A stretch of 64,000 nucleotides of DNA. Origin: Saccoglossus kowalevskii (Eukaryota > Hemichordata > Enteropneusta > Harrimaniidae). The stretch covers positions 69,760 through 133,759 of the forward strand of contig NW_003107106.1 in the NCBI RefSeq assembly GCF_000003605.2. Reading direction: 5' to 3'. The notes below the pieces were generated by a model. The model made no database searches. It worked only from the letters and a program-made list of their open reading frames with translations, and was not told the DNA's origin. The stretch's first letter is position 1, and each line of letters starts with the position of its first letter. The translations under genes were made by a program, and so were the position numbers. Positions 5,450 through 45,182 of this stretch are shown here, one piece after another.

Positions 5450-5505
5450 TATGCACATTTAGTCAAGGGATATTGTATGTATGGTACATAGGACAGAAAA
5501 GTTAC

Positions 5506-17459: not shown

Positions 17460-18137
17460 ATGTCGACCTCTACGAAACCGGTGCTCGTATTTTTAATGCT
17501 GCTGGGATGGAGCTACTGTCAACCAAGCTTGTTTTTGCACGATTCTCCGTCGGACAGTTCAAAAAAATGCCGATACATGGATCTGCCGCTTCTGGATTTA
17601 GAACTTGATCAAGGGAGCTCATATAACCCACCTCAACACGAACTACAAAATACATCTCGTCTTTTGCAGTTGTTGGGTGAACGCAATTTTGATTTTGAGT
17701 ATATGAGGATTACGCGGCCGAAGAAGAAGAGGCTTCCTGTTGACTTGAAATTAAGAGGGGAGATACCAGAGGACATTCAAAGCCAAAACCTCAGGCGTAT
17801 GCCCGACGGCACGAATACCAGAGTGGGACCCCACTCACGAAAAAGATTCCGTAGATGGTTGTGGGCAAGAACCCATTGTCCTGTGAGACAATCATGGAAG
17901 AACCTGGGCAAACGTTTTTGGCCGAGGTGGTTGAAAGTTGGAGACTGTTATCAGGGTCAGAACTCATGCTCCATTCCTTCGGGTTTAACGTGTTTGCCAA
18001 GTGAGTCGACGACAAAAAATGTACTTTTTTGGGCTTGTATCGAAGATAGGTTAGACCGCAAAATGCTCTGCCGTTGGATTTACGTACCTTACCCAATAAT
18101 AACGGAGTGCAGCTGTGGCGGCAACTGTGCCAAGTAA
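17460..18137 (+). CDS. noggin: Noggin, secreted BMP antagonist
   Basis: This 225-residue secreted protein binds BMP ligands outside the cell and blocks their receptor-binding faces. A hydrophobic signal (about 7-19) ends near Cys20. The N-terminal clip follows: LPLLDLELD at 42-50, then LLQLLGERNFDFEYM, which aligns with the LPLVDL and GG-x-DP-x-FM parts of vertebrate Noggin. Asn64 (Asn-Thr-Ser) matches the vertebrate glycosylation site. A basic helix (RKRFRRWLWAR, 127-137) corresponds to the heparin-binding stretch. The cysteine domain has all nine cysteines (140, 163, 170, 178, 193, 204, 217, 219, 223) and FWPRWLKVGDC, and ends near the YPII-x-EC motif. The end is CSCGGNC rather than the usual CxCxC, two residues longer. 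An acceptor (TTTCAG) lies 8 nt before the ATG; the domain itself is on one exon, as in vertebrates. Confidence 0.95.
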   Translation: MSTSTKPVLVFLMLLGWSYCQPSLFLHDSPSDSSKKCRYMDLPLLDLELDQGSSYNPPQHELQNTSRLLQLLGERNFDFEYMRITRPKKKRLPVDLKLRGEIPEDIQSQNLRRMPDGTNTRVGPHSRKRFRRWLWARTHCPVRQSWKNLGKRFWPRWLKVGDCYQGQNSCSIPSGLTCLPSESTTKNVLFWACIEDRLDRKMLCRWIYVPYPIITECSCGGNCAK

Positions 18138-19470
18138 AGTAACTATAACTCTTTGAAGTCTGTACAGACATTTGATAGCTTTGGTTCAGTGTACAGAAGT
18201 TAATGAGCCTGTATTCACGTAACTCATGATCGCGTACTTTTAAAACGAGTCGTGTGTATCCATTCAAACGGCGCATGCAGATTTGATCACCCAACACCAA
18301 CGTTAAACTTATGTCAAGTTTATGAACATTCTTCTGTATATAGAGAAACGGGCGGTGTAGATATATAATTATTAAGAGTTTTGTACATTTTGTAAGAGAA
18401 AGACATACGAGTTTTCGACAAAATATATACTCTTTTCAGTGTTTCTGTTATTGTAAGACAGGGTGGTTAGCTATATAGTCGAACTATTTAGATAAGTGAC
18501 CTAGTTGGAAACCCACGCCGACGTGTGGTGGTCCAGCAGCCGTGTTAAATGGTGCGTTCTGTGGAATATGTTATGTTGATAAAAAGAATCCAAACAAACA
18601 GACTGCAACAAATAGCCTCCTATTGATACCATACTATGTCAGCAGTTCATTATATCTAGCATTTCACTACTCAATACAACCACACTCCAAGTCAGCATTT
18701 AGACAATTTCATTGGAAAGTCAGTTCAGCATCTGAAACATGTTTTGTTGATTCCACGGAATATATCTGTTTCATTGTCCGTGTCGAAAATAATATTACAG
18801 TTTATTATGTAACAATTTGGTAAATATTGACACAGAGAGGATAAAGCTAGCCAACAGAGAGTTGCTTGCGATCGAGGCCCTTAGACAAATTGAAAATCAG
18901 TGAAAAAAAAACATAGGGCAGGAACAATTTAACAATCCAACAAGTGAAAGCTCATTAGAACATTCCAAACAAAGTTGGAAAATTTGGACGCATGATGACA
19001 TGAATAGTAACGGACTGAGTGGCACCATTTAAATCAACACTAAGCTTATAAGGCCCTAACGAGGTCCTAGGGGTTATCAACTACATCTTATCCGTCTACC
19101 TGTTTTTCAAGCATTTACAATCAGCATACAAGTAATTGTAGTATGCTTGAGCGCTTTAATCTATATGGACGCACTTCTCCTTATGCATGGGAGCATTTAA
19201 GTACGCCTGCTCAACAAATACACATACACAAAGGTTTCATGCACTGATTGCCATGCATAAAGTGTGGTGGTATCATACACAAGACACTTTTCTTACATCT
19301 TTTGAAACCAGTCCATTGAAGTTTCTGTAACACCGAATTTTGGAGTTATAATTTTATTAAATGCACCAGTAATCCCCGTTAACTTTGACGATTAATGTAT
19401 AAGAGTTAAAGCCATGTACAGTGTAATTTTTTTTGGAGAAAAGTCAATAAACCTTATTTATTTATCAAGT
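18138..19470 (+). other. presumed noggin 3' region, no other gene recognised
   Basis: No AATAAA is seen in the first kilobase after the stop. The first clear one is AATAAA at 19446-19451, which would give a 3' untranslated region of about 1.3 kb. A weaker signal could be used earlier. A 93-codon frame at 18542-18823 has no recognisable motif. Confidence 0.3.
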
Positions 19471-21319
19471 ATACATATTGGGTAAATGTTTCTTTTTAGG
19501 TTTGCTTTCTTGTCCTTAAATTATTATATGGTACACGAGAGACATTCACAGTACTGTACTGTCAAATGATGAATAGCAACCCAGCCAAAAAACGCCATTA
19601 TCCTCAAAAGGGTTGTTAGTAGTAAGTAGCCCCGGGGGCATACCACTTTTTGTTGCAGGGACCACAAGGGGTGCTGCCATTTGATCTTGAGATATTTTCC
19701 TCTTTCTAGCTCACAGTCCCAACGCCTAATTCAGTCTTCAATCGCATGTTGCACTAGGAATTCTCAACAGATGTAGGACACACCTATCACCTAAGGCGTC
19801 ATGCGTCTTCAGGTAAAGTGCACTCTCGAAACTTTGACGACTATTTCGATTACACATTTACTTTACCGCCTCTCCGCAAATGGAGGTCCAAGTACTATGT
19901 GGAACGTGCGTGTACGTTTTATAAACAGGAAAAGAGTACTTGTGAAAAGTGATTGACCGCTATCATACGAGAATGTCGGCGCTGATATCCGAGTCAGTTG
20001 AACTAATTGAGGCTGACGGCTAATTAGCTCATCAATCGCATGTCAGAGGAAATTACATGTACACCGATATAATAGCCCATGCCACATAAACCACTGTCGT
20101 TTTCAATAGCATCCTTAGCGGCGGCCAACCACTGATCTTTTGTATAGTGTAAACCGAGAGCTCACGATGCGGTCACCTGCTTTCAGTACAGCGTCAATTT
20201 CGACTTCACTGGGATTATTTTTTTACAACCCACATAATTGAGAGTTGAGGGGCCGCAAGGTTACGCGTAAAACATGCATTTCATGCTATAACTTTATTAA
20301 TATGTACATTAAATGACGGAAACGATGCCAACTTGTCCAACGTTTAAAGTGAATGCATGTGTGTCTTTATGTTTATCCGAAATGCAAACCATACATCAAT
20401 ATTCAGACACATAGTACTTAATGTATATGAACTAATATCGGGAAGTGTGAATTGGCTTCAATATCTCAAACACTTTATTTATTTGAAAGACCTTACGTCT
20501 ATTCTTAGTGGATTGTGTAGAATTGATTGTTAATATAACGTTGTAAAAATAGTGATACCATGCGTGCATAGCATTCTTTTACAAGTCGTGTTGACTTTCA
20601 AGACACGTACAACAGTAAAAACGATTTTCGTGTTCTAATGATTACTTGATCTGGGAGTCCCGTCTCCGACACGAGTCTAGCGTCTGCATATGGTGTCCGC
20701 TGATCAGTAAAACATGATCGCACAAATAGGATGTATTTGGTTGTAATTCTATCTTTACATTAGAGAAACACCGTGCGATGCCAAAGTAGTACACAAACAG
20801 AAAGGGCATGTCACAGATACAAAATTATACTTTGTGATGACAGACTTGGCGACTTCAGGCCTATTGATGTGAGGGGGCAAGCCTCACAGACGCAAATATA
20901 TGATGTTGTTGCGTAGTAAAGAAAACCACACTGCTATTATCTTATTTAAACAGTGTAACAATCCGGGCAAATTACAATTCTCAAATGTTAAGTCTTTTAT
21001 CCTCGTCTTACAGTAGTAGATTCCTGCGGGGTCATTAAAACTTGAATAGTATCACACGAATAGCATGGTTCTAATTTTTTCAGGCCATTTTCGACCAGAC
21101 TTAGACTGGCACCGGACAATCTCAGATATGTCTCTTCGTTCTAGTATAGTCTCTAGTTGAGTGGTTAGGTCTGGCTTTGTTCGAGGGTTACTTCAAACAT
21201 TCAGATGTTGGTCCTTTGAAACCGTCTTACTCTAGCACTCTATGCGAATTTCAATTGACCCAGCCACAAAGTTTCTCACTGTGGACATTGAGTCGTTTAT
21301 GCAGTGCTCCTTTGATAAA
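19471..21319. other. intergenic between the Noggin genes, no gene recognised
   Basis: Only short frames occur and no repeat family is identified. It belongs to the roughly 26-kb gene-free interval between noggin and the Noggin-like gene, where shared regulatory DNA would be expected. Confidence 0.4.
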
Positions 21320-21468
21320 AATATAATATAATATAATATAATATAATATAATATAATATAATATAATATAATATAATATAATATAATATAATATAATATA
21401 ATATAATATAATATAATATAATATAATATAATATAATATAATATAATATAATATAATATAATATAATT
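21320..21468. repeat. (ATAAT)n microsatellite, about 30 units
   Basis: A nearly uninterrupted pentanucleotide array of about 149 bp. The open frames through it (Tyr-Ile-Ile-Leu repeats on the minus strand) are by-products. High purity suggests recent expansion and likely length polymorphism. Confidence 0.97.
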
Positions 21469-24400
21469 AATTGTTAACATTTCCCTCTCATAGTCATGGT
21501 CATGTATATAGGTGTGTATAGTGACATACATGTCAAGTAGTTGCTGTATTTGCTGTTATCCTAATCGGTTGAGGGCCTCTTGAATGTTGCTTGGTGCCAG
21601 TAAGTGCTCGCCAAGATCCTTTAAAATCGGATTTTATGTTTATTCAGTGTGGACGACCAGAGGACCCTTAAGACGAGAACTGGAGACAGGCTTTGAACTC
21701 GATCGACGTAGTCGTCGGGATGAAGGGTGGCGCAAGTAGTAGATAACAACGTGAATATTTGACTTCACACATATGCTTGTCTCGTTTAGACCGCTCCAAT
21801 AAACCGATACATAATAACAGATAGATAATACTTGTGCTAACTCAATCTATTCAGTACTTGGTACGAATACGAATCTATTTTGCGATTGTGTGTATACGGT
21901 ACTGGCGAATCTTGCATCGCCTCAGCTTTTGTGTATAGTCTTTGATAGGTTTATTTCAAAAGCTATCTCACTAGCATGATAAAAGAAATACTGTTTATGC
22001 CTAGGAATGCCTCTACGGAGTGAATAATGTAGACTATCGGGGCTCTTTGCTGTATATAGTTTTGTATATTACTTCGCACTGTTTATTTGGGCATGTTTTT
22101 GTTGTACAGGCGGTTTGGGACTTGGGAATAAGGATCCGTTTTCAATCAGTGAAGACTTGGGATTTGCTATAGGGCAAACATCAGTTAGGGTTATCCAAAA
22201 AAACGAGTTTCGAAATTGTGGTTAATGGTTAGCCAATGACCACGGATGACGAAGCCATGGTTGTATGAGGGAATGTGATAAAATGAATAAAAGAGCTGTT
22301 GGCAAACTTGTCAGTGTTAGAAATAAATTAACTGGAACTCGCCGGGCTCTCTATATACATACGATGCAAGGGGCCGCTTGAGGGAACAAGAAAGGGCAAC
22401 ATTTAAAGTGAAGGAAGACACCCCGATATAACGAACTGTCTGTATAATCAAGTATAAGAAACATCATTCCTTCAACATTGGTATTCTAACTGGTTAATGA
22501 CTCGGCATAGGAGAAAAACAACACTGCCATGGAATGGTAAATGAGAGTGGAAATCTTTGTCAAAACAAGCCGACATAAAGTCGCCTAGCATCCCAGGAAA
22601 AGAAAGCAAACATCCCAGTGTTGTTGTATCATAATGTTACACTGGTAGTAAGACCATACGTTGTTTATTTAGCCATTAACAGTGAGGGCGTTCAAGGTTC
22701 CAATGAGAGGTATCGTATGTTGATCGGATGAAATAAATATTGATAATACATTGTACAAATACATAATTGATCTTTTTATAATATTGCTAGACATATTTTG
22801 CACAATGTTTCGACAATGTTACCATCACGATAATAGTACATTGTGAATCATATATATTTTGGCAATTTTTAATATCATTGTTAGACTCTTAAATGTGTCG
22901 CGCATCGTCCATGACTTTCGGCCTCTTTGAGAAACCTCCGCAGGTGTCCGTGTTCGACCTGGCCTGATTAATGCTGGGGTACTGATACCGTATAAACTTG
23001 CCATAATGCCATTATTATTGGAAGATGATTAGATATCAATCCTATCACAGAGTCTCAAAAATGGAATACGGTTAATATAACAACATGCACTAGATGCATC
23101 GTACTCACATGCACTTGACATTTGTACATAAAAAGGTCAGGAGAGACAAAGTTGACGTCTAATGTGTGCAATTGTCTGACCACAGCATACATTTAAACAA
23201 AATCGTCGGACAACGTGTCGTATTGTGGTTAGGTCACATTCATTCATTCATTTTTCTCATACGTGAGGTAAACGCTTCCTCAACTACGAATCATGAGTTC
23301 ATGATATAAACATCCACTTCAAGTACGCTACTGACAAGTTTGCGGTTTGGAGCGTTCGAAAATGTTAACAAGAATGGCTAACCGCCGTTTGAGCAAATAT
23401 GGACGGTTGCAGACACCCAACGTAAATTAAAGAGCGGCGAACAAATTTTGAATTTTTAGTTCCAAAACTGAAAGACGTTTATTCATCAACTGTGTTTTCC
23501 AGTACGATCAAACTGGGAACGTTGGTTAACATTGCATCATTATGATACAAAATAAATACCAATCTTCATAACTCTATAATAATTCATGACGAACATACTC
23601 ATTTTGTAAATACTAACATATCATAACTAATGATTTCTTTCACCCTATGGTAATTGATACCGAACTTTGAACCCAACTTTTAGATATAATGGCGAAATGG
23701 GAATCTAGCAATACGGCATTAACCGCATATGTATACTTAGTAGAATACGGAATAACAATAATACCACTTGGCATAAATCAAGCAAATCTGATGATCTATT
23801 TTAATCAACTTCCACCAACTAACAAAGGTCGGTTCATTAATCCATATGAGTACGCGTGCCAGTCACATGGTGTGCCAAACGCATGTACGAGGTTGTTTTG
23901 GTTGGGCCAATAACAGTTCAATAAAACTTATCGTAAAGTTGTTTTCTTTCGTTCTTCGAGTCCATTTTAATATTTCGTACATTTTCATAATCCGTATTTT
24001 ATTTTTAATTGGTAATTATTATACAAATTTTGATTTTGAGTACATGTGTTTTGCCGCAGTGAATTCGAGTCGATACTCATGTTCTACATCAGCTGAAATC
24101 ATTTAGTAGAGTTCACCACCTACTGGGCGTTCCCGTACTGAGATAAACTAATATACTCATGTTACTCATGCTACATCGTTGGTGTTCACATCTCATTAGT
24201 AATAAACTTAACTAAGTTTTAAAACGTGTGATCGAAATGAGTAACTGCATGCATGACAAAATATGTCTTGATCACGTGACCATCAATGGGATGGTTAAAT
24301 AACACGTGGTGTATATTATCCCGAATATACGAGGAAAACTGACTACGGTAAAGCACATTGAGAAATAAACAATAACATTGCTTTCCAGGAGAATATCTAT

Positions 24401-25580
24401 CGACGTTGGTGGCAAGCCGGATCTGTAACGACTTTGCACCATATTGACCCCGTAGCCTCTGGTACACAACACTCCGAGTTGTTTACGGTTCTGCCCTATC
24501 AAAAGGAATTGTCCTCCAAGTTACCCGCACGCGACAGCCTTCAACTACACCTTCTGAGTCGCCTGCCGGACGTGCTGAATCGAACGTAGCGGCGTGATGG
24601 ACTTTGAAACCCTAGCACATGAAAACAATACAGAATTTGACCATGGCCTATCACGGGGCCATGGAATCGTATACATTCAAGTTTGTTTTATTATTATTTC
24701 TGATCGCAATATCGGAGACAACGGATAATACATTTTAATAACGACCAAAAAGGCGCCAATCCTGAGAGTGATTATACATGAGTCCAAGCGAGGAATCAGC
24801 GTACAATAGGGGTACAGGCAATTCGAATACCATAAACAAAACACTTGTAAATGTATTATACTAAAGGTTGTTGCACAGGTATATTTTACCCGTTCACACG
24901 GTGCTAATTTTTACTGGATCACCCTAGAATATCGGATCGACCCCCTGGCCTGCCGTCAGCGCGTGGCAAATGTAACGGAATCGGCTGAGAACCGCCCGGC
25001 ACTCGCTGACGAAGTGAAGTGATTGTGCTTTTATTTGAAGTGCTTTTGGAAGCAGTACAAGAGGTTCTCACGGGGTAGATTTTCAATTTAGACTTTTCGA
25101 TGCAAGTTTAGTGTACGTTTCTCGAAGGAAGTGCGAATTAAGTGGCAAGCGGGTGGCAGCATGCCCAAGCGTCCTCCGCACCAAGTACCCTTACGTCAAT
25201 CGGGCCGTGGCGGGGGGTACTTACTGGCACACAGCGGATACCTGCCCCTCCGCTGATCAATATACACATATGTTCCATTCGAGGACGTGTTTTACATGCA
25301 ATTAACAGAAAACAACCTTCTTTCCAATAATTGAAAACATATTTATTTTTTTGCCTGAAATAGTTCATGTTTATGATTGTTTTACGTTGATTGGCGTATA
25401 CAAGTTGTGTAGAACACATACATTTTTCAACGAAGTGTCCGTTCTCATACCCAACATAATACATGTGTATTGTGTAAAGAAAAGAGGCGTGTGTCATCAC
25501 TTAAAAAACTTATTCATAAACTTGTGCGACAAAAAGTTAGCTGCTTATGCTGAGTGGAATGACTGTGTCCAGCGGATAAA
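21469..25580. other. intergenic, no gene recognised
   Basis: A GC-richer patch at 25100-25260 carries frames on both strands but no recognisable domain. A TCACGTGA E-box lies at 24272-24279, and a TTAA-AGAGCGG motif like the end of the fold-back MITE below lies near 23427. Confidence 0.35.
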
Positions 25581-25583
25581 ATC

Positions 25584-25704
25584 TTAAAGGTCGGGGGTCG
25601 TCGCGCCGCGTCCTGTTCGATATGGAACGTACATTTCACGTGTAAAGAACATTGTTTACACGAAATTTGAACACGCGCTGCGTGACGACCACCGCCCTTT
25701 AAGA
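25584..25704. mobile_element. fold-back MITE with TTAA ends (Kolobok- or piggyBac-like)
   Basis: TTAA at both edges encloses inverted ends of about 25-30 bp: AGGTCGGGGGTCGTCGCGC on the left, and AGGGCGGTGGTCGTCACGC read inward on the right. The middle is also nearly self-complementary (TTTCACGTGTAAA versus TTTACACGAAA), so almost the whole 120 bp can fold on itself. TTAA duplication with RRR-starting ends points to Kolobok; piggyBac also uses TTAA. Related single ends are at 34285-34308 (right-type end) and 59333-59358. Confidence 0.6.
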
Positions 25705-28700
25705 GTCGTTAGTCCCGCCAGGCAAGAGATGGGTAAAACAGTTACTTTTACGGCCTGGGACATCTCTAATAATCATTGGAGTTCATTTTTGTTTGATTGT
25801 CCCTTATTTCCATCTATTTCGGCAATTTTCTTTGATCACACAAGGTAAGTTAATGACGGCTACGCTGTAAATTTCGTGAAATGGGCGGAACATGGCGTGA
25901 TCTGTACCCTTGTTGGATTCCCATGTTTTTCTCTCTTTGCCAACAACGCTTTTAATCGGCCCAAATGGGAATATTGGAGCCAGACATGCCGATTACCACC
26001 CCATTGACATTTCCGCTGCAATAATAACTTTTATACTCCAATAACCACACATAGTTGCAAAGTCAATGGGGCAGTATATGGATAAAAGGGGAAAGCAAAG
26101 CAAAATAAGTTGACTGATTAAGTATAAAGTAGACGCGGATCGCACAGTAAGCAATGATGTGTACACCACCACCGTCTTTCAATGAACATATCAGCTGGTT
26201 CTGTGCATTATGTTATGAGTAATGACAATATGATGAACTGGCTTCTTATCTCTCTCAGAGGTCACTAACTATTTATTTTTTCGATTAAATAGATACAATT
26301 AAGGAGAATTATTCATTCAGCTCATTTGTAATTATTTAATATTCTCCGGGTTCCGAGGCGGCGCTCAGCCTACGATTATAGATTTGTTCATAACAACGGC
26401 CCTGGAATCTAAAGACCTGGTGTTACCTGGTGCCCTAAATTCTTATAGTAATGCTATCAGAGATCAAACAGCTTGAGACTTAATATCGTTGCATACAGTG
26501 TTGAGATCATGACTGTATTTAACTGTTTTCAGTCTCAGTTATAATATAATACGTTACTTATGAATTCATATTACTTTTTTTTTTGGAATCTTGAAAAAAA
26601 ACACTGACAATCGATTGACAATCGTTGTCACACTTTTCCACCAGTCATGTATCTGAAATGGAAAGCTCCAGAATATCACTAGAAACGACGATTTACGATT
26701 GACACAGACAGGCTTTGATATGTCATAAACATGAATTGTTATTTCAAACTTTTAGAGTTTTAGAGTTTTTAGATTATTGTTATTCGTGTGTTTATATCAT
26801 AATCAGCCTATCTCTCGAACTGTGATAAAGTAGATTCTTTGCAGTCAAAATCATGTTTGTTTGAACGTAATAACAAATGAAAAGAGAAGAAGATATATTT
26901 GCTGCACACATAGTACTATAGCACCTGTGAGAATTGTGACAACCCACTTTGTGTAATAATACCATGCTTATTTAAAGCAACAAAAGTAAGTTGGCGCGTA
27001 TCGCGTTTGAATTTGTTTGTAAACAATCAATGTATTTACAGGTGTTGTGTACGTCGCATGGGACCCATACCGAAGTCGACGCGGTGCGACGATTGTACAG
27101 CTTCATAGTGACGTTGGCCTCACTTTTCTCGCCATCCGAAATATGAGATATCATCAAAATTGTGAGTCAAAAGAAAACAAATTACAGAAACTTGCTTTGC
27201 TGTCATAGTAACACAAAATCTGAAATTACTTATAAATAGTATTATTTAGTTATAATATAATAACATAACAAATTCTTATTCCTTTCTTTTTCTTGTGTTA
27301 ACAAATCACGTTTTGATTATGAAAAAGAGTTGCTATCTCATTATTGGCAACATTTTAAAACTGGGGTAACAGCAAATCAATCATGGTATTTTCTTTTGAA
27401 AATTTCCGAGTATAAGCTGCACGAATTAAATAAAATTGAACTGAATTTAACTATTATCTAATATAAAGATCGCTGCATGATGAAATATCGCCCTCCTCGA
27501 TGAAGGTAGTTTATTTCTAAGACACTACTTACTTATCAGAGTATGTTTTACGTCAACCGATTCTAGATCTGTTCATACTCATGTAATGCAAACTTTAAGT
27601 CAATGTATTGTTTCGCAAAGATGCAAGTTGATTTTTGCTGTGAACCTATTCAAGATAAGAGACTGGCTGTGTAAATCGGATTTTATTTTGTACATTCTGT
27701 TTATGTGTCATTGATACACAGACAATTATATATGACAAACGAAAGTAAATTTCTGTCGCCATCCAATCCAAAATGGCTAACTGGCAGGCATTTTGTTTTA
27801 CATGTTGTCAACATATAGACATTATAAACATACATACTAGTATTGAGGTGCCTTGCAGTCTAATACATTTGGTTCGCAGTACAGACCGGAACACAAACTT
27901 GTAAAAAAAAAGTATATAAAAGCTGCCGTGCATTTGTTATATATGGACAAGAGAGAGGTGGTGTGAAATTCTGAACGACTTTTGTCCTGTGTGTTTTATC
28001 TGTTTACTTTATTTACGGTTATTGACTGTAGATATTAGCGCATTTTTTTATTTTTATTTTAAAATATTCTATAAATGATACTCCGAATGAAGAGTATATA
28101 CCTCGTAAGAAAAATCTTAGAACGTGAGAAAAACAGTGTAGAGGATTGTTAAAACCTATCATGCGTCACTTTCTATACTATGTCTAATTACTATATCTTT
28201 TTACGTTAATGTTTAGTTCGTAAATCACTCACAGATGGTGAACTAGAAAAACACAACCTCGGGTTTGCTTAATGATCAATGTTCTTGTTTCAGTAAAACA
28301 TTCCCTGAACGAACATGCGTTGTACAAGACGAAACACCAACAATAGAGGGCGCTTGATGTTTTGCTGAATTGAGCTCAACAAGGAATGAGAATGATTAAG
28401 ACGTGATAATTAATATTGATAAAGTTTGCTTTTGATTAGATTTCCTTTCCAAATTTGTCTTTAGCTCTGCCAATTAAAAAAAATCTAATGTGTGCCAAAT
28501 GTTATAGACTGCACATGTCGTCTGCGGCGGACGCCCGGTCAAGAACCCAATTACTGCTGTGTAACGATGATACTCGTCTATGCTAACGAGAGTTTCTTCT
28601 CTGTTAACGATGTAACACTAGCAGCAGGCAAAATGTCACAACATCGAATTGACATGTTTTTCGAATATGATCTTCTGGGGAGACTATTATACCATGTCCA

Positions 28701-31399: not shown

Positions 31400-31412
31400 C
31401 CAGTAGAGGGCG
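31400..31412 (+). promoter_or_regulatory. CTCF-like core motif
   Basis: CCAGTAGAGGGCG is a full match to the CTCF core CCASYAGRKGGCR, which is conserved across bilaterians. It sits near the middle of the interval between the two Noggin genes, where an insulator or loop anchor could separate or join their regulatory domains. The motif match is seen; binding is inferred. Confidence 0.35.
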
Positions 31413-34400
31413 ATATACCATAAATGCATAAATAAAGTATTTGCTGTAAAACAAAATAACACCTGTACGGACGTGGTGGTGGCAGTATTATTTTTATTTG
31501 AAAGAAGATGAAACGAATAGAACTTGCTGAGCCACGATTATTGGTTGATTTTGTGAAAATAACTTGGTACAAGAGTGTTATTGTGATTCCTGAAGGCATT
31601 CATAATTTATGTATTATCGAACATATGTATAAGTACATGTATATGTAATTCCACTTTTGTATTTGAAACTGTGTTAGTAAATATGATACCAGTGTAGTAT
31701 TTGTCTGGGTATATAGTGTGTATTGTATTATATAAAATCTTTCAAAATGTTTACAGTTGTAAATACAGACATAACTGAGCTTATGTGTAAACTAGTCATA
31801 CTTTTACAGTGTCGGATGTGGAGACTGAGCTCAGAACATTATACAGCTCACGGCGCCATCAAGCTGAAGCGACGGACACCGGAGGGCGCTGTCCTATTTC
31901 CCCAACTCCTGAATCAAAACTAATAATTGTCACAGATATTATTTTTATTTTCGATTTCCATATTAATCTATATATATGATATCAATTCATGCATATAGAT
32001 ATCTTCCAGTTCGGCTTTCGTGTTCTTTGACAATGTTTAATGTCTTAATTTTTCCTGTACAAATTTGTGTGCCAAACAGTTTTACACACTTTTATGATTA
32101 TTTTTCTATGCTTTTTGACGCGCGCAATAACCATTAGTACATTAAGTTGTTAATTACGTATGCCAAGTAATTTTAGGAGGGTATAAGAGGTGAATCTTTT
32201 GTCATGATGTGATGACTATTCTGTGTGTTTTTTCTGACAGAATACTGGGTCAACATGTCAACCCTATACACTTTTGTGTGTAGAAATTATATACCTCGCT
32301 TCTGAGATATTTTTACTTTATTTTTTTCTCGACTAATGTGCAAATAATATAATTCTAGCCACCCCCCTTCTGCAGCAAAATTATTTACTGCGCTTGTAAT
32401 TTGCGCTGCTTTTCATAGAGTACGCGTTATATTTAGCCTTTCCCTGTGTCTGAGGTCATTGGTGTCCCATCCCTATATAGGGGAAAGTGCAAACACGTTT
32501 AGCGTAAGAACGGTTTTATCTAGACACTATATGCGCATTTCTCTTAATACAGTCCTGATGCTGCCTGGTGGTGCCCTATCGCTAGGTAACGATTGACCTA
32601 CGATCTGGTGGCGGACCTACCACGTAGTCAATGACTTCAACTCCTATCGTGTTTTCGTTCAGTTGATTTAAACAAGCTATTGACAATGACAGAATTCTCA
32701 TTATTATTATTTATTGTATAGAATGAATGAAAGTGTTATTTTTGTTGTTACCTGATTTATCACAAAATATCTACTTTAACAGAGTTGATGAACTGGGAAT
32801 AAAATTGACGTGCTCAATTATTAGTGTGTTTAGGTAAATGTTTATGTTTGTATGTTTGTCGTCCTTAAGTGTGAATATGAGTATTTGGCACAACATGTAT
32901 CACCCATTTGTCCCTCGAAGTGTTAATTGAATCGCGATTGGCCAATCTTGAATTCTACTAAGTTTGATTTAATTTGTTTAGGCTGTACAATAACTATTCT
33001 TTCTTTCTGACGTCAGTGAGTGCCTAGAATTTGTAGAAAACCAACAATTATGATATCTTGAACATTACGTTATGATTTGCATGTTTTGGAATATTTAATG
33101 AGCTTGTTTTGCACAGCCCCGCCATGTTGCATACATCGCGTTGGCATCGATTCAACGAAGTTGGAATCTCTGTCAATGAGATTTTTACCACTGCTGTTAA
33201 AAAACAGACATCTCATATTCACGATGTACGATTTAAGAAATGGTCTTAGGAATGAACCATTATATTTGAGGGGGGTTATACATTTTTTTCACTTACTGAG
33301 TATAATGTCGCGTTTTCCAATTAGGTATAACCATAGTCAAGGTCAAGCTTTCTATTACGTGTTTTACTCGGCAAAAGATTGTCTGCGCGATACTAGCCTA
33401 GCCACCCCAGTAGAAATAATGGCCCACCCCTCAATAATAGTGTGTTCAACACTTGTTTAAATAATATTGTAAAATCACCTACACAGAAATTGTCATATGA
33501 TATCAACTCATGGGGGGGGGGGCACTGCATTTGCTGTATGTTTATCCTAAATACCTGAAATCACTAATACCGCATATTATAGCAATATCTTAAATTCTCA
33601 CAGAGTGCAATATTTGCATTTCCTAATTTACTATGTCTATCTCACGGCGACGAGACTACTAACATATAGGTTTAGTTGGCAATTACTTTCCAGACGACTG
33701 GAACTCCTTTCACGGCTGAAAGCACTTCATTTATATTCTTTGGATTGTATAATATTATTGAAAAATTGCCAGATATGTTGATGAAAAACTTTTCTGCTAA
33801 ACTGCAAAACATGCCAAATAGGCGTCGAATATCCTCGACTCGTTTCAAGAAGGTCACACCAATTAAAACGCGTATGTTCTTATTTTATGAAAGTCGATCA
33901 GTCATATTTTTCATAGCACCAGCCGACTGTCTCCAATCATATTGCGGCAGACAGTCTGCACTGCGATTATAACTGTGTCCCGATCTGGAGATCCAATTCA
34001 CAGATCAATCAGCAAATTACGCTGCGACAATTTTGGGGAATTATTAGCGAAACGATGACAACTTACCACGTACCAGTAATTGGCAAACACATATCAACTG
34101 ATCAGTGGAGATGCTAATTGATCTGCAACGCGCTCATCCATCATATACGTGTATCAACAGCGCCGCCACCGTCGGGCTGCGATGGTCGACAGTCGTCGCG
34201 CAGCCCACGGTTGAGTCTCGTGTAAACGAACAATATATATATATACACACGTTGCACCATGGGACCATAGCGAACACGACACGTCGCGACGACCACTTCC
34301 CTTTAACTTATATGAAACAGTTCCGTGAGTACGAACGAGAAATTCTGAAGCGCCGTTATGTTGCGACCCTAGCAACGTCAACGCCAACACATAGCTTAAT

Positions 34401-36504
34401 CGCGTAGTAATAAATCCGAAATGGCTTTATGCAATCTATTTTAAATATAGTTTACGTTTCGTCAAATTCCCCCGGTAAATATTTTTTTCACCGCTCTTCG
34501 GCTTTGATGTGCCCTTTAAAACTTTAAAACGGAATAATAAAAACTTACTACAAAATACTAAATTATGAACATTTTATTTCGAGGTTTAGTTTTTGTGCAT
34601 GTGAACAACACAGACAATTCAATTCTCACGCAGATTGTGTCGTTTAAACATGCCTCACGGAATGTAGGCCCGTCGCCAAAATGTACACGTCCACGGTGTA
34701 TGCATGTAGACTACACACAGGTTTATAGCATGACTCAGCGGATACAATTATATAGTGATATTTTCGAAAAATAAAATAAAAAACAAAACGCACGGTTTCG
34801 CGAACTCGATGTAAACATTCTCTTCCACGATGGCTGAGCAAACGGGCCTTAGCTTGCGAAGGTGATGCAGCCCCATTAAGCCTCTCCAACAATTGAAAAT
34901 AGTAAAGAAGCAACAAAACAACACCGAATCTGACACAAATTCACGATCAGTAGGGAGATATATAGAACTTGGATGATATGAGAATTAGAGCCCTGGTGAT
35001 AATTCAGATGACGTCACGTGATCTGTATACCACAGCGACATCTTTCGACCAATAACATTTTGCAAAGTTAATTATGATATTGTGATTATGATGTTTACTT
35101 CAATCGAGTACACATGTAATACTAGTCAGTTGGTGGGTACATGTTACTAACAAAACCATCATTTCTATCACGCAAACCAGCAAGCTTTTTTCCAGACTAA
35201 CTTTGGCCGCAATTTATCTCTTAGAATCGACACGAAGTACTGATAGTGAATTCTGCCCAACAGGTGGACTTTGTTTTGAATGAATTCCGATCACTTGTGC
35301 GTACGACATCAATATTTATAACAAGTTGACAGATTTTCTAGACACTAACACTGACAGTATATGAATATGATGAAGTCTACAGATACGTCTGCAAACCATT
35401 TTACGCCTTCTCACTATGATCCGTACAACGTCCAGTTGTGACAGACCTGAGTTACACTGTTGTATTATGTTTGTTCTGAGCAGGCACATGATTCTTCTAC
35501 ATGAAATACGCCAAGGAAATTTGACATTTGCATGAACCAGAAAAGGTCACACATTGTGGTGCTTTCTGGGAGTAACAGTTGTCATTAAAAATCAAGAACA
35601 GTTTTCGAACACAAACCATGTGGTTTGATATTAGGAATTATTGCTTCTTTCAGTTAACTATGTTTTTTTGGAAAATCCATATTTGAATTGTAAATAGGAC
35701 AATTTATGCACGTCTACATCAATTTTGGTAATGATGTATAAACAACGATCTAGAGTACAAAAACAAACCAAAATTACGCCACAAAAACAAAGAGCAACAT
35801 AAAACAAAACATACAAATTTGATAGGATTGCAACACATTTCACTAACAATAACGCGAATGAAGGAGTCAATGTATTTGCGCAGCGATTTTTCCATTTGAT
35901 TATGCAAATCCGATGTAATTCGATAAGGCATACACATCAATTCGGAAAAAAATAAAACATGTCTCCAAATAAATATCATTTAATAACACTTTTGCATCGG
36001 ATCTTACATAGTATGATTATATTGCCCAAATAATAGTACAACATGGATACAATTTACAAACAATATTGTAAATAATACGGAAAAGTGTATTGCATAAATG
36101 ACGACACAGATGAAGCTGCCATTGTCGTTAGTTACTTACTTTCCGATATGTGCTCTCAAAAATGTCCCCAGTAATATAGTTCTTAGGTTTTAAGTATTGT
36201 CGGACTTCAATATCAAATAATTAGATCAAGTAATTCTTAATTAATTGTTTTCAGAAGGTGCATCGTCCGCCTGCACGGTGATGCTCCGTTCGAACATTCC
36301 TCCCTCCACAACACCGTGCGGTAATTCTATTCATAACCGTGTATGTCACGTGGTTGCGCGATAGAAAGTTTACCGACCAATAGAAAGCTTTGTTACAATG
36401 ACTACCAAAAAGCGCTTGGGGCTTTGCATTTCTGATGTCTTCATCTTCGGCTAGTCTGGTTCCCTGCCCCATTTCAACGCTGAGGTGAAAACTTGGGCAG
36501 GGAA
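31413..36504. other. intergenic, no gene recognised
   Basis: The longest frame here is 127 codons at 33077-33460 (+), without signal, domain or splice support. A 98-codon frame at 33676-33972 (+) overlaps a 61-codon frame on the other strand; neither is recognised. A short coding-like start with donor occurs at 34830-34859 (+). TCACGTGA lies at 35014-35021, overlapping a TGACGTCA. At 34285-34308 there is a right-type end of the TTAA MITE family. Confidence 0.35.
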
Positions 36505-37009
36505 NNNNNNNNNNNNNNNNNNNNNNNNNNNNNNNNNNNNNNNNNNNNNNNNNNNNNNNNNNNNNNNNNNNNNNNNNNNNNNNNNNNNNNNNNNNNNNNN
36601 NNNNNNNNNNNNNNNNNNNNNNNNNNNNNNNNNNNNNNNNNNNNNNNNNNNNNNNNNNNNNNNNNNNNNNNNNNNNNNNNNNNNNNNNNNNNNNNNNNNN
36701 NNNNNNNNNNNNNNNNNNNNNNNNNNNNNNNNNNNNNNNNNNNNNNNNNNNNNNNNNNNNNNNNNNNNNNNNNNNNNNNNNNNNNNNNNNNNNNNNNNNN
36801 NNNNNNNNNNNNNNNNNNNNNNNNNNNNNNNNNNNNNNNNNNNNNNNNNNNNNNNNNNNNNNNNNNNNNNNNNNNNNNNNNNNNNNNNNNNNNNNNNNNN
36901 NNNNNNNNNNNNNNNNNNNNNNNNNNNNNNNNNNNNNNNNNNNNNNNNNNNNNNNNNNNNNNNNNNNNNNNNNNNNNNNNNNNNNNNNNNNNNNNNNNNN
37001 NNNNNNNNN
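36505..37009. other. assembly gap
   Basis: 505 unresolved bases. The bases before the gap (GGTTCCCTGCCCC ... GGGCAGGGAA, about 36459-36504) form an inverted pair, so a repeat end probably caused the break. Frames running across it are artefacts. Confidence 1.
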
Positions 37010-39088
37010 TAGTGGAGTGCTTCGCCGGAACATTCACCTTGAAAATTCAAGATGAGAAGGTGACACAAAACACCATTTAGGAGTGACACTTGCAATTTAC
37101 ATCCAGGGGTGAAACTGAGAATCATTTTCAAAGTTGGGGACCCACGTTCAAGTTTTACCAAAGTGTCCGGGGGGTTGGATTAATAAGTCATACTACGTGC
37201 AAAGGCACACATGTATTTAAATTTGATATCAGGTACATATTTTTTTTTTTAACAAACAAGTTTGTTTTTTCGATGCATTTGTACGCATTCTAAAAATACA
37301 CACTGACGTAACGCTGGCATAATGTATGTCTACTTCTGCTGTCTGGAATTTCAGACACAACCAAAATCATGCAGTATAAGATCGAAGAAGAAATATTATG
37401 TATAGCAAGGATGATATAGGCTTCGCTCCACAATTATATTTTGTATCAAGGCGCGGGTTCACAAATGTAATTCTACCATTTTGAAAAAAAAACTTGTTGT
37501 AAGGAATATTATGCTTGCTTGTATATAACTGTTATATATAATATATATCTTTTAAGAAAATAAACAAGTCTTAGATTTGTGCGTGAAATTTCAGTGAAAT
37601 GTTATCTTCTTATATGATCTGATCCATACGACTGTTTTGTGAATTCAGAATAATAATCCATTAAATTTAACAAATAACCTTGTTTATCTATGGTATGCGT
37701 TTGTTTGCGTTTAACTACAGTTAAGAACGTGATGACACTGTGAACCACAGTTCATCATTGCAAACAAAATTAATACAGTCACTGAGTGTTGGTGATGGCC
37801 CAGGCTTGCTTAGTTTCAGAATTAATGGGATTTGACAAATTGTATACCTTGAAATAAAAAAACAAACAAACAACATTGTGTTATATAATGCTTTTCGTTT
37901 CTGTGCCAATTATTAATTAAACGTGTGTTTAATTATTGCACATTGAACTACAAGCCTATTACACTCATAATGTTGTTGTTTTTTTTCTCCAGAAAGCTGG
38001 TCCTAAAACGCATAACAATATTCATTGATTTATTATGTGCAATGAAGCATTATGTTATGTGCTATGACACTGTGTCGAATTTCTGCTAAATATCTTTATT
38101 CATAATTACTTATCTTTCTTAGGAATGTTCCATAGAACACACTGACAAAGAAAACTTGTCCTTTTTATCAAAAATCGTTATCTTTGAAATATGTAATGAA
38201 ATGTATTCACCCTATATCGCCAGCCAATAATTTCATGTATGGCCTAACATCTTCACCATAGGATATGGCGATATTTCAATAAAATACAAACACCAGTTCT
38301 TTAATAATAGGCTGTACATTGTAAAATAAACAAAACCTGGGTCTGTCCAATAATGACTAGACTTCTTCATTTTCAAATACGTGGATTCTGATAACGTGCA
38401 TATATATTTAACGAGACACGGTCATAAATGTCACGAATAACTAAATAAACGCGGAAACTTTTGATTGTATTGTATCGCTGAAAAGTAAGAGTTATTATTT
38501 AGAAGCTGCCAGGTCAACATGTAGGCCTGGTTGTGAATGCGTGAAACGTGTAGAACGCACAAATGTTGAATCAAATTGCAAAAATAAATGATCAGTAATC
38601 CACCACGGGTACAGACAACAACACATTTGAATTAAAGCGATCAAAACACGTCCGCGAAATGGTTAAGACAACATGAGATTTAAAACCAACATGAACAACC
38701 AGACGGTCGTTTTAAATACTAGTAAAAAAAAGTTTTGGCCAAGACATACCCGAGAAACGGTTGTTGACATATTTTAGTGCTTAGCGTTTGGGACTAAAAA
38801 AAAAGAACAATTGCATAAGTGTTTTGTCTTTAAAACTGCTTTGAACTAAATCGAACGAAGCATGTCCAAAAAATAGATAAAGAAAAATGCATAGCCACCA
38901 GTCGGCCATTTGAATCAAATAACAAATTTATGTGCATCAGTAATCATCATATGTGACATTCAAGCCAAGTTTTAATTAATTATGTCCAGGAATGCCTGAA
39001 GAAACGGTTAATGAAAATCGCCGCCACTCAATTACCAGTAAATTGTATGGAAATAAAAAATACCGTCGGTCATTTTTATTCGAATCGC
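37010..39088. other. intergenic, no gene recognised
   Basis: AT-rich with many short stops in all frames. A G-rich phrase near 37170 (GTCCGGGGGGTTGG) looks like the edge of a dispersed repeat but has no second copy in this window. Confidence 0.35.
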
Positions 39089-39421
39089 GCCCCCCCCCAC
39101 TCTCTATATTTAGGGGGGCCTATGCTTGTTCCCTCATTTTTTTGACCCCCCCCCCATCTAGGGAAAAGAAGAAAATTTAACACCCCCCCTAGGAACTTTT
39201 CATTCTAATAAACCCCCCTTTTTTGTATATCTCGGGAAGTGTTTTGAAATACACCCCCTATTTTGAGAATCTCGGGAAAACAAGCAAAAAATACCCCCTT
39301 TTCTACGATTTTCTCGGGAAAATGTTCCCGAGACAGATCGTCAAAAAGTATCCCCTTTCCCGAGAAAATGGGAACGCGCATGCGGCCCCCTATGGATCCT
39401 GAGTGGGGGGGGGGGGGTCGC
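39089..39421. mobile_element. C-tract-ended MITE with internal TCTCGGGAA repeats
   Basis: The left end (CGCGCCCCCCCCCACTC, then TATATTTAGGGGGGCC) is an imperfect inverted copy of the right end, which read inward gives CGACCCCCCCCC...ACTC, then GATCCATAGGGGGCC and CGCATGCG. The interior repeats a TCTCGGGAA plus A-rich plus ACCCCCT unit about four times. The GGATCC near the right terminus recalls the hAT-like relic at 13007-13465, although the core differs. Non-coding; the small frames here are chance. Confidence 0.5.
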
Positions 39422-39756
39422 GACACAAAAAACGTGCATATGTAACCCATTATGAGTGACGAAATACAATGTTTGAATGAAATTGGCCAAGCCATGCCAG
39501 AAAAAAACAGTTGTCATGTCAACATTTGTTCGGGATAAAACTGATCGCCAATCGGTCAAAGGTCAAAGAAACAAAAAACAAATTGATAAGCATATGTACT
39601 CAATTATGACTTCAATTCGAACAAAATCAGTACGGAACTAAAAATATAACAACTGCACGAGTTCACAAATATATACAACCACAAATTATACAAACGTGAA
39701 TCGGGACCCCCCCCCCAAACAAACCCACCAATTTGTATAACCAAAAAGTATGCCAC

Positions 39757-39827
39757 CATTCATTCATTCATTTATTTATTTATTTATTCATTCATTCATT
39801 CATTCATTCATTCATTCATTCATTCAC
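39757..39827. repeat. (CATT/TTAT)n tetranucleotide microsatellite
   Basis: An array of CATT units with a central block of TTAT units, about 70 bp. The poly-Phe/Ile/His-like frame through it is a by-product. Confidence 0.95.
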
Positions 39828-42800
39828 TCAGCCACAGTACATTTTAGGTCATAATATGGGAGGAGACAGTCTAAAGTGCATTCACGTTTCAAATGTTAAG
39901 CATTGGTTAGTATTGGAATATAATCCAGTAAAAAATAACTGTGTGGTAACAACCAAAACAACGTGATAACTGTACAATTACAACTTAAAGGGCCCCTTTG
40001 ATTGAAACGTAATCACTAACGTTGTGTAACTGTTTAACTATGTCACTGATTGCATACTTGTGAAACCTACCCAAGACGGATACTGATAATTTGTAGATTT
40101 CTCGTCACACTGGCGCCTGGTTGCATTATCACCCCTCGTGTTCAAGGATTTTCCCAGACAATAAACACCGTTTACATGATAGCACGTAGCATTCAGGGGC
40201 CGTGTTATGAATATCTAAGCGCGATGATATTCGCAGTAATACCACGGTCTGCTGAGTACCACGACGCTTTGTATGATTGGACACGCTGTATTCCCATGTC
40301 ATGGCCTTAGTCTGCTATAATACAACATGTACAGTAGATGGCATCCGTCATTATCACCCATCCTGTCACAGAATTCATGAGAACGCGTAGAAATTTCATA
40401 ATCTATTCTGGCCTATTCAAGATTTCTGTTTGACTGCCACGTCGTACTTACCAGACGACTAATGACGTATCGTGTATTTTCAAGTGGAGAAGACCGTTGC
40501 TCTTGGTGAGGATAAAGAACAGATTGACATATGCATATCAGGACGACACTGAACTCAAAAAGTACAATTGCCTATATGTATCACTTACTCATATCAGTGT
40601 ATATTCCAAATTAAATTGAAAATATCGTATTTGTGACAAAAACTCGCACATGGTTCAATTGCAGTATTACAGAGGGATGCGTTTTAGTGATGACGAATGC
40701 GGCAAAAATGTGTTTACATTCAGCACCTGAAAAAGAGAGCCGAATAGCAAATACAATGTCGCCCACATGCATACATGCACGTGTATTTGGTCATTTCATC
40801 GCGCAATAATAAATAACAGGGACATCTGCAACGCCCTCAATGACCTCTCATGCTTAACCTTGCCACATGGCAACCAGACATCGCTCACATGGCAACCAGA
40901 CATTGCACACATGTCATAGATTCAAAATTCTGCCAGTACAGTACCCGATTAACGGTGAAACCCGTGGTTTGCGTGGGTTTTGGGCGCAGCGAACACAAAA
41001 CACGAAGCAGCTCTACTAACCAACACCCGAGGGATTCGATAGTGCTGCAGAATGTGATAAGAGAGTTGTTCGTTAAGTCAGTATACTCTCAGCGCAACAA
41101 AAACATTCCCCTCATCTTTATAAATATTCATTAATTTCACAATTCGAATTGAATCGAGGGCTTTATATTGGCCGAATGAATAACATTAGAACGTTTTCAA
41201 ATGACGTCGTTGCGCACTGTGCTAGTTGATTGGCTGGTTGGATTTAACTGCAATGAAATTTATAAAGATGAATGGAATGCCTTTCTCGCGCTGAGACTAC
41301 CGAGTACGCGCAAATGAACCATTTAGTAGTTTTTCAACTTGAAATATATTTTTAATTAAAATGACAAAAGATAACTACTTATAATGACGTCAACAAAAAT
41401 CATACAAAGAACAACAAATCAATCATGTCAGCAGCGATAGTAGTTCAGACCAAAATTCACATGTTTGCCAACAATATCACAACGTCATACAATCACAAAA
41501 CCAAGTTCCACAAAAGACACTGCAAAAAAAGATGAAAATAATCTGAATCTAAGTTCTCAAAAGGACATTTTTTGTTTTAATTTCTGAAAAGTTGACGCAA
41601 GGAGACGAACATCGACGGCTCATCCATCATACTATACCCGAACATCGGTAGCTGACAGCGGAACTAGAACATAGTTAAAACGCCTTGAAACAGTGAAGCT
41701 TAATATCGAAACGACTAGACATGAAAAATGAACGGTAATGAAATACAGGAATAGTTGAGTGACGACAAGTGTATTAAGTAATAACCGAAAGGTATTATTT
41801 ACCGGAACTATAAATATAAATGAAGACGAAATATCGATCAGGGAGATTTATTTATAATTTCCAAAGTAAATCAAATTGGATAAAGTAATGCATTTACGTG
41901 AGTCTCGCCCAGTATAGCAATCAATCTGATTACTCAGCTGGTGGCCAACCGTGGATTTAGAATTCCCATTAATAGCATCACGTCGAAGACACCACTCATG
42001 CTCAGCATTGCGGGTTTTTTTTTCTGTTCTTCTCGGTATGTTGAGGTGGGAGAAGTCAGAGGTCAGAGCGCAAGGCTGGCAGCGCGTAAACATGGCATAT
42101 ATTAACGGTCATCGGAAATATCGGAGACCATACGTAACACCAGACTTCTTATTTCATCGAGATATTAATCATTGCGTAATATATAAAAACAAATTTGACG
42201 TATTTCCCGCCAAATTATTGCATTAATTTAACGACATTTCTTGTAAATTTGAATGTTAAATTAAGACGAGACACTGCAACCATACAGCAAATTAACTTTG
42301 ATAACTAGTTTCTGAGTTATGATTATTGTTATAATTATTGCCATCGTTAAAAATATCATTCAATGCGATTATTTTGCGTATTGGGACAACCTTTGATGAC
42401 CAAAGAGTTAAATACTACACTAACATCAAAAGGTCGTTATTAATACTTAGAGCACAATGTGTACATTAGATCCACGGTTAGTCACTTATTTATAAGTAGT
42501 AGGCTGTGGTGACAACATTCACTGTATAGTACTAGACAATGATATGTCTTAATTCTTCTCTGTTTACACAACATTCGCAGTAATCCCGTAGACGGGAGGT
42601 GACAGTGCTGCACGGAAACAAATTATTCGCAGCCAACACGTGAGGAATGTTCACGTAAAACAAATATTCAACCGAATAATACGGTAACATGATGGACAAA
42701 ATACGGGACGACAGTCTGCTTCACCGGTGGCAAGACAAAAATATAATACAATACAACCATGGCATCCCCAGTGATAACAATATCTTAAATAGTTCTCTTC

Positions 42801-43974
42801 TTCGAGCCTGATAACCGCCAAATTATATGTATTTAATAGTATTCACCTTTTTTTTAAATTAGGTAATGCCAGTTCGTGCATGTCACTGCCACCATGTAGT
42901 TGCGAGAATAATTAGGTCAGAGCAACTCTTGCCCCGAGTATAACAGATACTGGAAACATTTCTGTCAACATTCGGGTCACCGCGAGTTAAAGTAAGACGT
43001 CATTACGAACAACACACCGCTGTAAGTCGTGTACGATTGCCGAGTTGCTTTCCTAATGCTTTCCATTAAACACAAGACGAGCACGATCGTTCGATAACCT
43101 CGTATTTCGAACCACGTCGCTGAACTCAATTAAGCGTTTAAAATCAGTCCCTTGTGTGCCCAACAACACGCCTGTGGGCGATTGGAATCACTGCTTTCGT
43201 CTGGCCGATATCTCTTTTGAGAAAAGGCATCAGAACTATACCCTGTTTCGTACGAGGATGGTGTACGCCACCACCAAGAATGACGTAATAGTCTAGAACA
43301 AAGATTCCTATTTCAGCTGCTACTGAAACAGGTCCTAATATCCCTTAAAATATCTCCGGAAAATATTACTCTAACATAACATTTGTTATTTGTGTTGGAC
43401 GATTACGTACATTTGAAATAATAAAACGTGCTACAATTGGAGACGGTTCTGAATATAGCGTATTTTACTGATAAAGCACAACACTTTGAATTATATCTGT
43501 ATGCACAACTTATGGAAAATATTCTTGTAAATAGTGTTTATAAAGTACAAGGAATGCAAAACGTGACTAGCGATTCCACGCGTGTCTATATAAAATTCTT
43601 CTACTCGCGAGGCTTCAACAAGCGACACTTATCATTATGTTAAAATAAGCTTCTTCCAACCTTTTACTTGACAACTCATGGTACAATTGATTATACTCGC
43701 CGCCAGCCGAAATGCAAAAAGCGAAAAATGACAATCTGTTAAATTCGTTGTAAAGGTCAAAAGTTCAAAGCCAATTTACTAGTACGATATAAACATTAAT
43801 ATATAATCCACATCATAGTATACTGCTTTCTTCCATCCTACTGACGCAAGCACATATGTAATCAGTCATAACATAACATTTGTGACAGTGTTTGCACTCT
43901 TGAAGACTACAACATAAACATTGCACTGGATTTAATCAAACTCAGGGGAAACGAATTGGTCTATGAAACTTGAA
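39828..43974. other. intergenic, no gene recognised
   Basis: Frames of up to 94 codons occur without motifs. A short direct repeat of ACATGGCAACCAGACAT lies near 40865-40900. A TGACGTCA occurs near 41384. Confidence 0.35.
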
Positions 43975-43980
43975 TTTATT
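43975..43980 (-). terminator. candidate poly(A) signal of the Noggin-like gene
   Basis: AATAAA on the minus strand, about 425 nt after the stop of the Noggin-like gene. An ATTAAA variant lies closer, at 44050-44055. Either could serve; the choice cannot be made from sequence alone. Confidence 0.3.
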
Positions 43981-44405
43981 GGCTAGTCCTGTTTAGAAGT
44001 AGTGCATAATGCATGGACTATTATTAGTACTCTCTTACTGTTATAAGCTTTTAATGTTACCTATTTTCACATAGGACGGCGTAAGTTTTGTCACAGATAA
44101 GTTTCTCAATAGATCGAAATATTTCTGAAGTGTTACCTAATTGTCACTGTTTCAAGTTAGAATTTCCTTTGAACCACAGCACCATTTCCATTGCAAATAC
44201 ATGCGAGGTTGTTAGAAGGCCATCCACACGTAAAATAGCGACGTACTCTTTAACTACATTGATATTAAGAAGGAGATGTAATCATCGAAAATAGATACAC
44301 TTTGCATGCATACTCTCATACAAGCCAGCGAAGTTCGATTTGAGGGGAAATAATAGGAAAATAGCCTAACCCAAGTTACGCTACGTCAGCTGTTACTAAG
44401 TTGAA

Positions 44406-45182
44406 TCAGTTTTTCCCTGCACACTGGCACACACATTCAGCGGCTATTGGGTACGGAACTTTGATCCATTTGCACTTCATCTTATTCGATTTGGATTTTT
44501 TTTTCGCTTCCCTGGTAATACGACCACTTGGTTGAATAGGAGGATCTTGAGAACGCTTGCTCTTCTTTCCACGGCAGTACCAGCGAAGGAGTTGGATATA
44601 GGTGGCTGGTCCCGGTTCGCATGACATTCCGTGTGGCCAGGAACAGTCTTGTTGTACACACTCACCATGTTTGATCCAGCGGGGCCAGAAGAGCAATCCG
44701 ACGTCCAACCACTCGTGTCTGACAGAACACGATGCTTGTTGAACGAGCCAGTGTTGCAAGCGTTCTGTCGTTTGTCCATCCATGGTAACGGTTTCCCCAT
44801 TCTCGTTGGTATACGTAAAGTCTAAACCAGTAGCCTGGTTTTGTAAAGTGTTTTGCACAGATGTTGTCATTGGGGCGACCTTTTCGTCTGGTTCTTCAAC
44901 AGACATATAATTTGGGTCGAAGTCTTTACCTAGTTTCTTTTTAAGCTTTTTGGCACGGAGGTCCCTTGCTTTTGGTTGTAGGCTCTCCTCTATCGTATCA
45001 CCAGGTATTGCCTGTGCAGTGCCATTACTAACCTTCAAATATGGTGGAGATCCGTACAATTGTCTGAGACTAGAGAGAGTACCGTCGTCGTCGGCGGCGG
45101 CGTTCGCCCCCGTGCTTAAACAAGAGATTATCACGATAACCTCTAACAGTAAACTTGAAATACAGATTCTTCTAGGAGACAT
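44406..45182 (-). CDS. Noggin-like protein, secreted BMP-antagonist family
   Basis: 258 residues on one exon. A signal (about 8-28) ends in the TGANA region. Residues 71-94 (KARDLR...LGKDFDPNYM) match the LL-x-GG-x-x-DP-x-FM clip segment of Noggin, but the LPL-x-DL motif is absent. The cysteine domain keeps nine cysteines (152, 175, 180, 188, 203, 237, 250, 252, 254), FWPRWIKHGEC, VPYPIAAEC and a regular CVCQC end. Between Cys203 and Cys237 are 33 residues, against 10 in the other gene, and they are strongly basic (KKSKR, REAKKKSK). The basic helix before the first cysteine is lost (TERLQHWLVQQ). Asn53 is a likely glycosylation site. The start is supported by an in-frame TAA at 45242-45240 with no other in-frame ATG between. 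Noggin-like genes with insertions in the domain are known from flatworms; whether this is orthologous is not shown. Confidence 0.93.
   Translation of the reverse strand: MSPRRICISSLLLEVIVIISCLSTGANAAADDDGTLSSLRQLYGSPPYLKVSNGTAQAIPGDTIEESLQPKARDLRAKKLKKKLGKDFDPNYMSVEEPDEKVAPMTTSVQNTLQNQATGLDFTYTNENGETVTMDGQTTERLQHWLVQQASCSVRHEWLDVGLLFWPRWIKHGECVQQDCSWPHGMSCEPGPATYIQLLRWYCRGKKSKRSQDPPIQPSGRITREAKKKSKSNKMKCKWIKVPYPIAAECVCQCAGKN

Follow-up and report, generated by a model that had tools for sequence, protein, structure and literature searches.

Why do two genes of the Noggin family stand tail to tail in one locus of a non-vertebrate animal, and how long have they stood there? The first-pass annotation of the window (the whole 64,000-nucleotide stretch of DNA analysed here) described a canonical Noggin gene on the plus strand facing a divergent Noggin-like gene on the minus strand, with no recognisable gene between, and proposed an old tandem or inverted duplication kept together, perhaps by shared enhancers. 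Our check of the open reading frames (ORFs) agreed with the reported coordinates and orientation, the two genes lying about 26 kb apart, and the tail-to-tail ORF pair is confirmed as real in the sequence as given. The features that define the locus are the following.

17460..18137, plus strand: noggin ORF of 225 amino acids, with a hydrophobic N-terminus, a basic RKRFRR stretch and a nine-cysteine knot (ORF, Pfam, PDB match, alignment)
44406..45182, minus strand: noggin-like ORF of 258 amino acids, with a hydrophobic N-terminus and a nine-cysteine knot and with no clip motif that can be read (ORF, Pfam, PDB match, alignment)
18138..44405, no strand: interval without a Pfam-recognisable gene (Pfam six-frame scans and a control scan)
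36505..37009, no strand: assembly gap of 505 N between the genes (sequence)

The window has a GC content of 36.5% and a CpG o/e of 0.96, values that argue against a vertebrate source. In 60 windows simulated under a Markov-1 model the longest ATG-initiated ORF was 174 amino acids (mean 122), so ORFs of 225 and 258 amino acids are beyond chance. Membership of both proteins in the Noggin family, with its nine-cysteine domain, was upheld by Pfam and by the cysteine spacing. Against PF05806 (Noggin; cut-off 24.1) the plus-strand protein scored 163.3 bits (E 9e-48) and the minus-strand protein 151.8 bits (E 3.1e-44). In phmmer searches of the PDB the sole match of each was human Noggin, 1m4u/7ag0 at E 4.6e-27 for the plus-strand protein (E limit 0.01) and E 3.9e-22 for its neighbour (E limit 1), and when the two proteins are aligned with each other 47 of 168 columns match (E 4e-23). 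The spacing of the last nine cysteines is 22-6-7-14-10-12-1-3 in the plus-strand protein, 22-4-7-14-33-12-1-1 in the minus-strand protein and 22-5-7-14-7-12-1-1 in human Noggin, a common spacing of 22-(4 to 6)-7-14-n-12-1-(1 or 3) in which n is 10, 33 and 7, respectively. Our reading of the locus, including the roles proposed below for the two proteins, is that of linked old Noggin-family paralogues, one Noggin and one Noggin-like, with converging ORFs, and we consider it reasonably probable as a whole.

The word canonical suits the cystine knot of the plus-strand protein and does not suit its clip, which appears degenerate, with Pro35 and Glu48 replaced in the hand alignment. The description of the second gene as divergent and Noggin-like in type was borne out by a 33-residue loop, the lack of a readable clip and the Pfam Noggin match. 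Two further features are needed for this comparison.

17544..17606, plus strand: putative counterpart of the BMP-binding clip of human Noggin, Gln28-Glu48 (ungapped hand reading)
44475..44573, minus strand: enlarged basic loop between knot cysteines 5 and 6, of 33 residues compared with 10 in the plus-strand protein and 7 in human Noggin (cysteine spacing)

The clip was aligned by hand, by counting back without gaps from the common stretch after it. Read in this tentative way, Leu46 and the LPLxDL core are kept, Pro35 is replaced by Lys and Glu48 by Leu; a phmmer search of the PDB with the 111 N-terminal residues of the plus-strand protein did not find Noggin at E <= 10. The human clip grips BMP, and Pro35, Leu46 and Glu48 matter in it (PMC9071555, in excerpt). 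Beside human NOG (1m4u; PF05806), the plus-strand gene has the same nine-cysteine spacing bar small loops, with 44 of 86 knot columns identical, and differs in a clip without Pro35 and Glu48 (ungapped, by hand), in a last cysteine shifted by two residues and in a probable intron directly upstream of the ORF. BMP antagonism by this protein is likely, judging from family membership. Since both proteins start with a hydrophobic stretch, secretion is likely for both, and as family members they would most likely be dimeric. The Noggin would bind BMP-type ligands and keep them off their receptors, perhaps weakly or through surfaces other than the clip, because not all of the human contact residues are conserved in its clip. 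Removal of the clip from the aphid protein ApNL1 left it able to dorsalise embryos, with an effect that was apparently weaker (PMC9071555, in excerpt). An AlphaFold2 model of the Noggin, built from a two-sequence alignment, had a mean pLDDT of 31.2 and was too poor for use.

The upstream intron is predicted from the ranking of splice sites, as follows.

17328..17340, plus strand: probable part of an upstream exon, whose ATG at 17328 would be read in frame after splicing as another start (predicted)
17341..17451, plus strand: probable 111-nt intron directly upstream of the noggin ORF (donor/acceptor ranking)

With approximate weight matrices, the donor at 17341 ranks fifth among 3776 GT sites and the acceptor ending at 17451 second among 2987 AG sites of the plus strand, and splicing of 17341-17451 would probably add seven residues to the Noggin from the ATG at 17328. 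At 8854, well upstream, there is a stronger donor that might pair with this acceptor as well, which would produce a non-coding leader exon instead. Translation may also begin at 17460, at an ATG preceded by a stop in the same frame at 17421, and the noggin ORF is intact without introns. A coding intron, if true, would be unusual among Noggin genes, since the known ones, vertebrate and invertebrate, have intronless coding sequences (PMC7483449, in excerpt).

In the minus-strand protein no clip motif was readable by eye, and the one stretch of human Noggin that phmmer matched to its 111 N-terminal residues lies downstream of the clip, with an E of 0.31 that is not significant. Planarian nlg proteins carry an insertion of 50-60 residues in the Noggin domain. 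An insertion is present in the minus-strand protein as well, although at 33 residues it is shorter than in nlg; the gene resembles planarian nlg and arthropod nog-like genes both in this enlarged loop and in having no readable clip. Absence of the clip has been described as a feature of Noggin-like proteins (PMC9071555, in excerpt). Because no clip is readable and the basic loop is long, a role other than that of the Noggin is more likely for this protein. It may promote BMP signalling like planarian nlg8, which facilitates it (PMC10545109, in excerpt), or act on Wnt like Noggin4, which binds Wnt8 and not BMP (PMC4789793, in excerpt), or alternatively bind heparan sulphate or a receptor kinase. 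Vertebrate Noggin4 is likewise a divergent paralogue with changed BMP-contact residues (PMC4789793, in excerpt), but unlike the pair described here it is not syntenic with the other vertebrate Noggins and is thought to be of early-vertebrate origin (PMC7483449, in excerpt). In one basal gnathostome group ankfn1 lies near noggin4, as it does near noggin1/2 (PMC10869764).

A different identity has to be weighed here, that of a ligand of the Trunk/PTTH type acting on a Torso-like receptor kinase, in which case the second gene would not encode a BMP modulator. No clip is readable in it, as is the case in Trunk and PTTH, the aphid protein ApNL2 activates Torso/MAPK signalling (PMC9071555, in excerpt), and trunk has been reported outside arthropods, including in corals and a ctenophore (PMC6660194, in excerpt). 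The cysteine spacing, however, is that of Noggin, and the search in which human Noggin was found at E 3.9e-22 returned no PTTH at E <= 1; a two-sequence profile of both genes matched Noggin at 6.6e-31 and PTTH (5aoq) at only 0.054. We consider a Trunk/PTTH identity very improbable, and the assignment as a Noggin-like protein is preferred.

The absence of a recognisable gene between the two holds at the level of Pfam, as the six frames of 18138-44405 minus the N gap (18 translated frames) gave 0 families at E <= 0.1. A control scan of the minus strand of 1-6452 recovered KLHL domains in all three frames, BTB and BACK in one frame and one Kelch exon apiece in the other two. Of these two Kelch exons the weaker scored 19.6 bits and fell just below the Pfam cut-off of 20.1, so that a gene made of short exons with little conservation could escape the scan. 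The KLHL-type gene itself, on the minus strand at about 2640-6394, comprises one exon with BTB and BACK and two or more Kelch exons; it lies upstream of noggin and is divergent from it. In the 12 frames of 45183-64000 the one family found was reverse transcriptase (RVT_1, 4.1e-16, minus strand, about 54637-55161). ARAGORN (bacterial code) found no tRNA, and no Rfam family reached its gathering score. The translated-frame Pfam scans covered both strands of 18138-64000 outside the gap and the minus strand of 1-6452. From the KLHL gene to the end of the window, a distance of roughly 57 kb, there are two recognised host genes, 6.4-17.5 kb being judged by the ORF listing alone.

Because the 505-N gap sits between the genes, their linkage rests on a scaffold join. 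If that join were wrong and the genes belonged to different chromosomes, the pair would be an artefact of the assembly, and both the position of the gap and an inverted repeat directly to its left would fit such an error. Set against this, there is no dinucleotide jump at the gap: with the first 12 kb set aside, distances across it are 24.3 to 32.3 and those within one side 21.8 and 29.9. The two sides also have a repeat family in common (6682-6803 and 41118-41246). The common profile and repeat family point to a single genome and say nothing of adjacency. In Nematostella, noggin2 and noggin1 carry successive gene numbers (PMC11846459, in excerpt), which also counts against an artefact. We give a wrong join little credence and treat the genes as probably linked. 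The first 12 kb differ more from the other four blocks, at dinucleotide distances of 53.6 to 68.9. The window has a second N gap of 383 bases at 13062-13444, bordered by inverted GTGGCGGATCCAG-type ends, as of an unassembled repeat. Other repeats are a 157-bp tandem repeat at 6889-7412 with related copies about 6 kb away (about 459-842), two tandem copies of about 360 bp (84%) at 46743-47440 and two inverted copies of about 330 bp (79%; 58055-58378 with 61271-61594).

If the two genes are linked paralogues, the next question is when they separated. Had the duplication been recent, the two neighbours should be the closest pair, and they are not. An old duplication is favoured, since the Noggin resembles human Noggin no less than it resembles its neighbour: in the 86 knot columns identities are 44 for Noggin and human, 39 for Noggin and neighbour and 38 for neighbour and human, and over all 152 ungapped columns they are 60, 52 and 54. 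Bootstrap support for the difference between 44 and 39 was 0.87, which is weak in a comparison of three sequences where human Noggin is the sole outside one. The duplication probably preceded the split from the vertebrate lineage, weak as this evidence is, and the copies would then have stayed linked.

The age proposed by the first-pass annotation was in this respect favoured; of the tandem or inverted event that it also proposed, no convincing inverted trace was found in the non-coding DNA. Between the two neighbourhoods tblastx and blastn recovered the match of the coding sequences together with two families of repeats and a few weak hits, and no mirrored non-coding DNA that was convincing. 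Short blastn matches join 27.0, 28.9 and 30.6 kb with 57.6-59.0 kb at E 0.001-0.016. When the halves of the interval were compared, the top match on the minus strand (25584-25625 with 34265-34306) scored 41.0 bits, where the best of 60 simulated pairs reached 37.4 bits, and it was rejected as a trace of the duplication for being part of a self-inverted-repeat element. This element (25584-25702) is palindromic with TTAA at both ends, has a diverged second copy at 34265-34306 and finds further weak matches near 27.1 and 59.3 kb (E 0.03-0.09). From such features we take it to be piggyBac-like; it is probably a MITE and not a shared enhancer.

A fast-evolving recent copy could mimic an old duplication. 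On this account a local inverted duplication took place within the lineage, after which the copy lost the clip and evolved fast. The pair is indeed local and inverted, and at 1.32 the noggin-like branch exceeds the other two (0.82 and 0.75). The identities with human Noggin argue the other way, as do the failure to find convincing non-coding similarity between the neighbourhoods and the occurrence of Noggin-like genes in several phyla (PMC13121700 and PMC9071555, both in excerpt). A lineage-specific origin is in our judgement unlikely, and we retain the old duplication.

How far back the linkage itself may reach is suggested by the sea anemone Nematostella vectensis, in which noggin2 is NV2.7393 and noggin1 is NV2.7394 in a 20-gene pathway list that holds two pairs with consecutive numbers (PMC11846459, in excerpt). 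The other pair consists of smad1/5 (NV2.2977) and admp (NV2.2978), possible BMP-pathway neighbours (same excerpt). Given 24,525 gene models in this animal (PMC10719294, in excerpt), random numbering of 20 genes would by our own arithmetic give about 0.016 consecutive pairs, so the numbers very likely follow position. Nematostella noggin1 and noggin2 may thus be neighbours, as read from gene numbers in the excerpt of one paper and not from a map, and they are likened by these numbers alone to the pair described here, which also consists of two Noggin-family genes; as support for conserved linkage they are independent only if the window comes from another species. In the Lingula genome paper, noggin-like is always on ALG H- and Q-associated chromosomes in the species compared, is missing in Lingula and was not found in bryozoans (PMC13121700, in excerpt). 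Among the matches listed in our search of the literature on noggin gene linkage, as far as their excerpts go, there was no linked Noggin/Noggin-like pair. It is possible, although we put it forward only as a tentative and rather doubtful proposal, that the Noggin and the Noggin-like gene arose by one local duplication before the split of Cnidaria and Bilateria and have been neighbours in one gene-poor regulatory domain since.

Shared enhancers for the pair are a guess. The two genes may instead be old paralogues that have remained neighbours by inertia, each with its own control regions and with no shared regulation. This account fits our preferred explanation of the locus and opposes only its shared-enhancer part. 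We found no convincing non-coding element common to the two halves of the interval, as inertia would have it. The motif GRCGNCNNNNNGTCT, which we take to be of the SMAD silencer type, had 0 matches in the window where 0.16 were expected, which says little. If the genes were shown to have been neighbours since before the split of Cnidaria and Bilateria, on the other hand, this would be unusual without some constraint. We regard inertia as a serious contender that falls somewhat short of an even chance.

The linked old paralogues described here are a further case of the known Noggin/Noggin-like kind, and their possible ancient linkage is the interesting part. The origin of Noggin-like genes is disputed; independent origins of Noggin4 and the flatworm noggin-like genes have been favoured, and invertebrate deuterostomes with sequenced genomes have been reported to have one Noggin (PMC7483449, in excerpt). 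Adjoining Noggin and Noggin-like genes, perhaps in a sea anemone as well, make an early local duplication checkable by synteny in existing genomes. If such a duplication did precede the split of Cnidaria and Bilateria, the animals reported with one Noggin would have lost the partner, and if enhancers are shared, the same regulation would govern both a BMP antagonist and its divergent counterpart.
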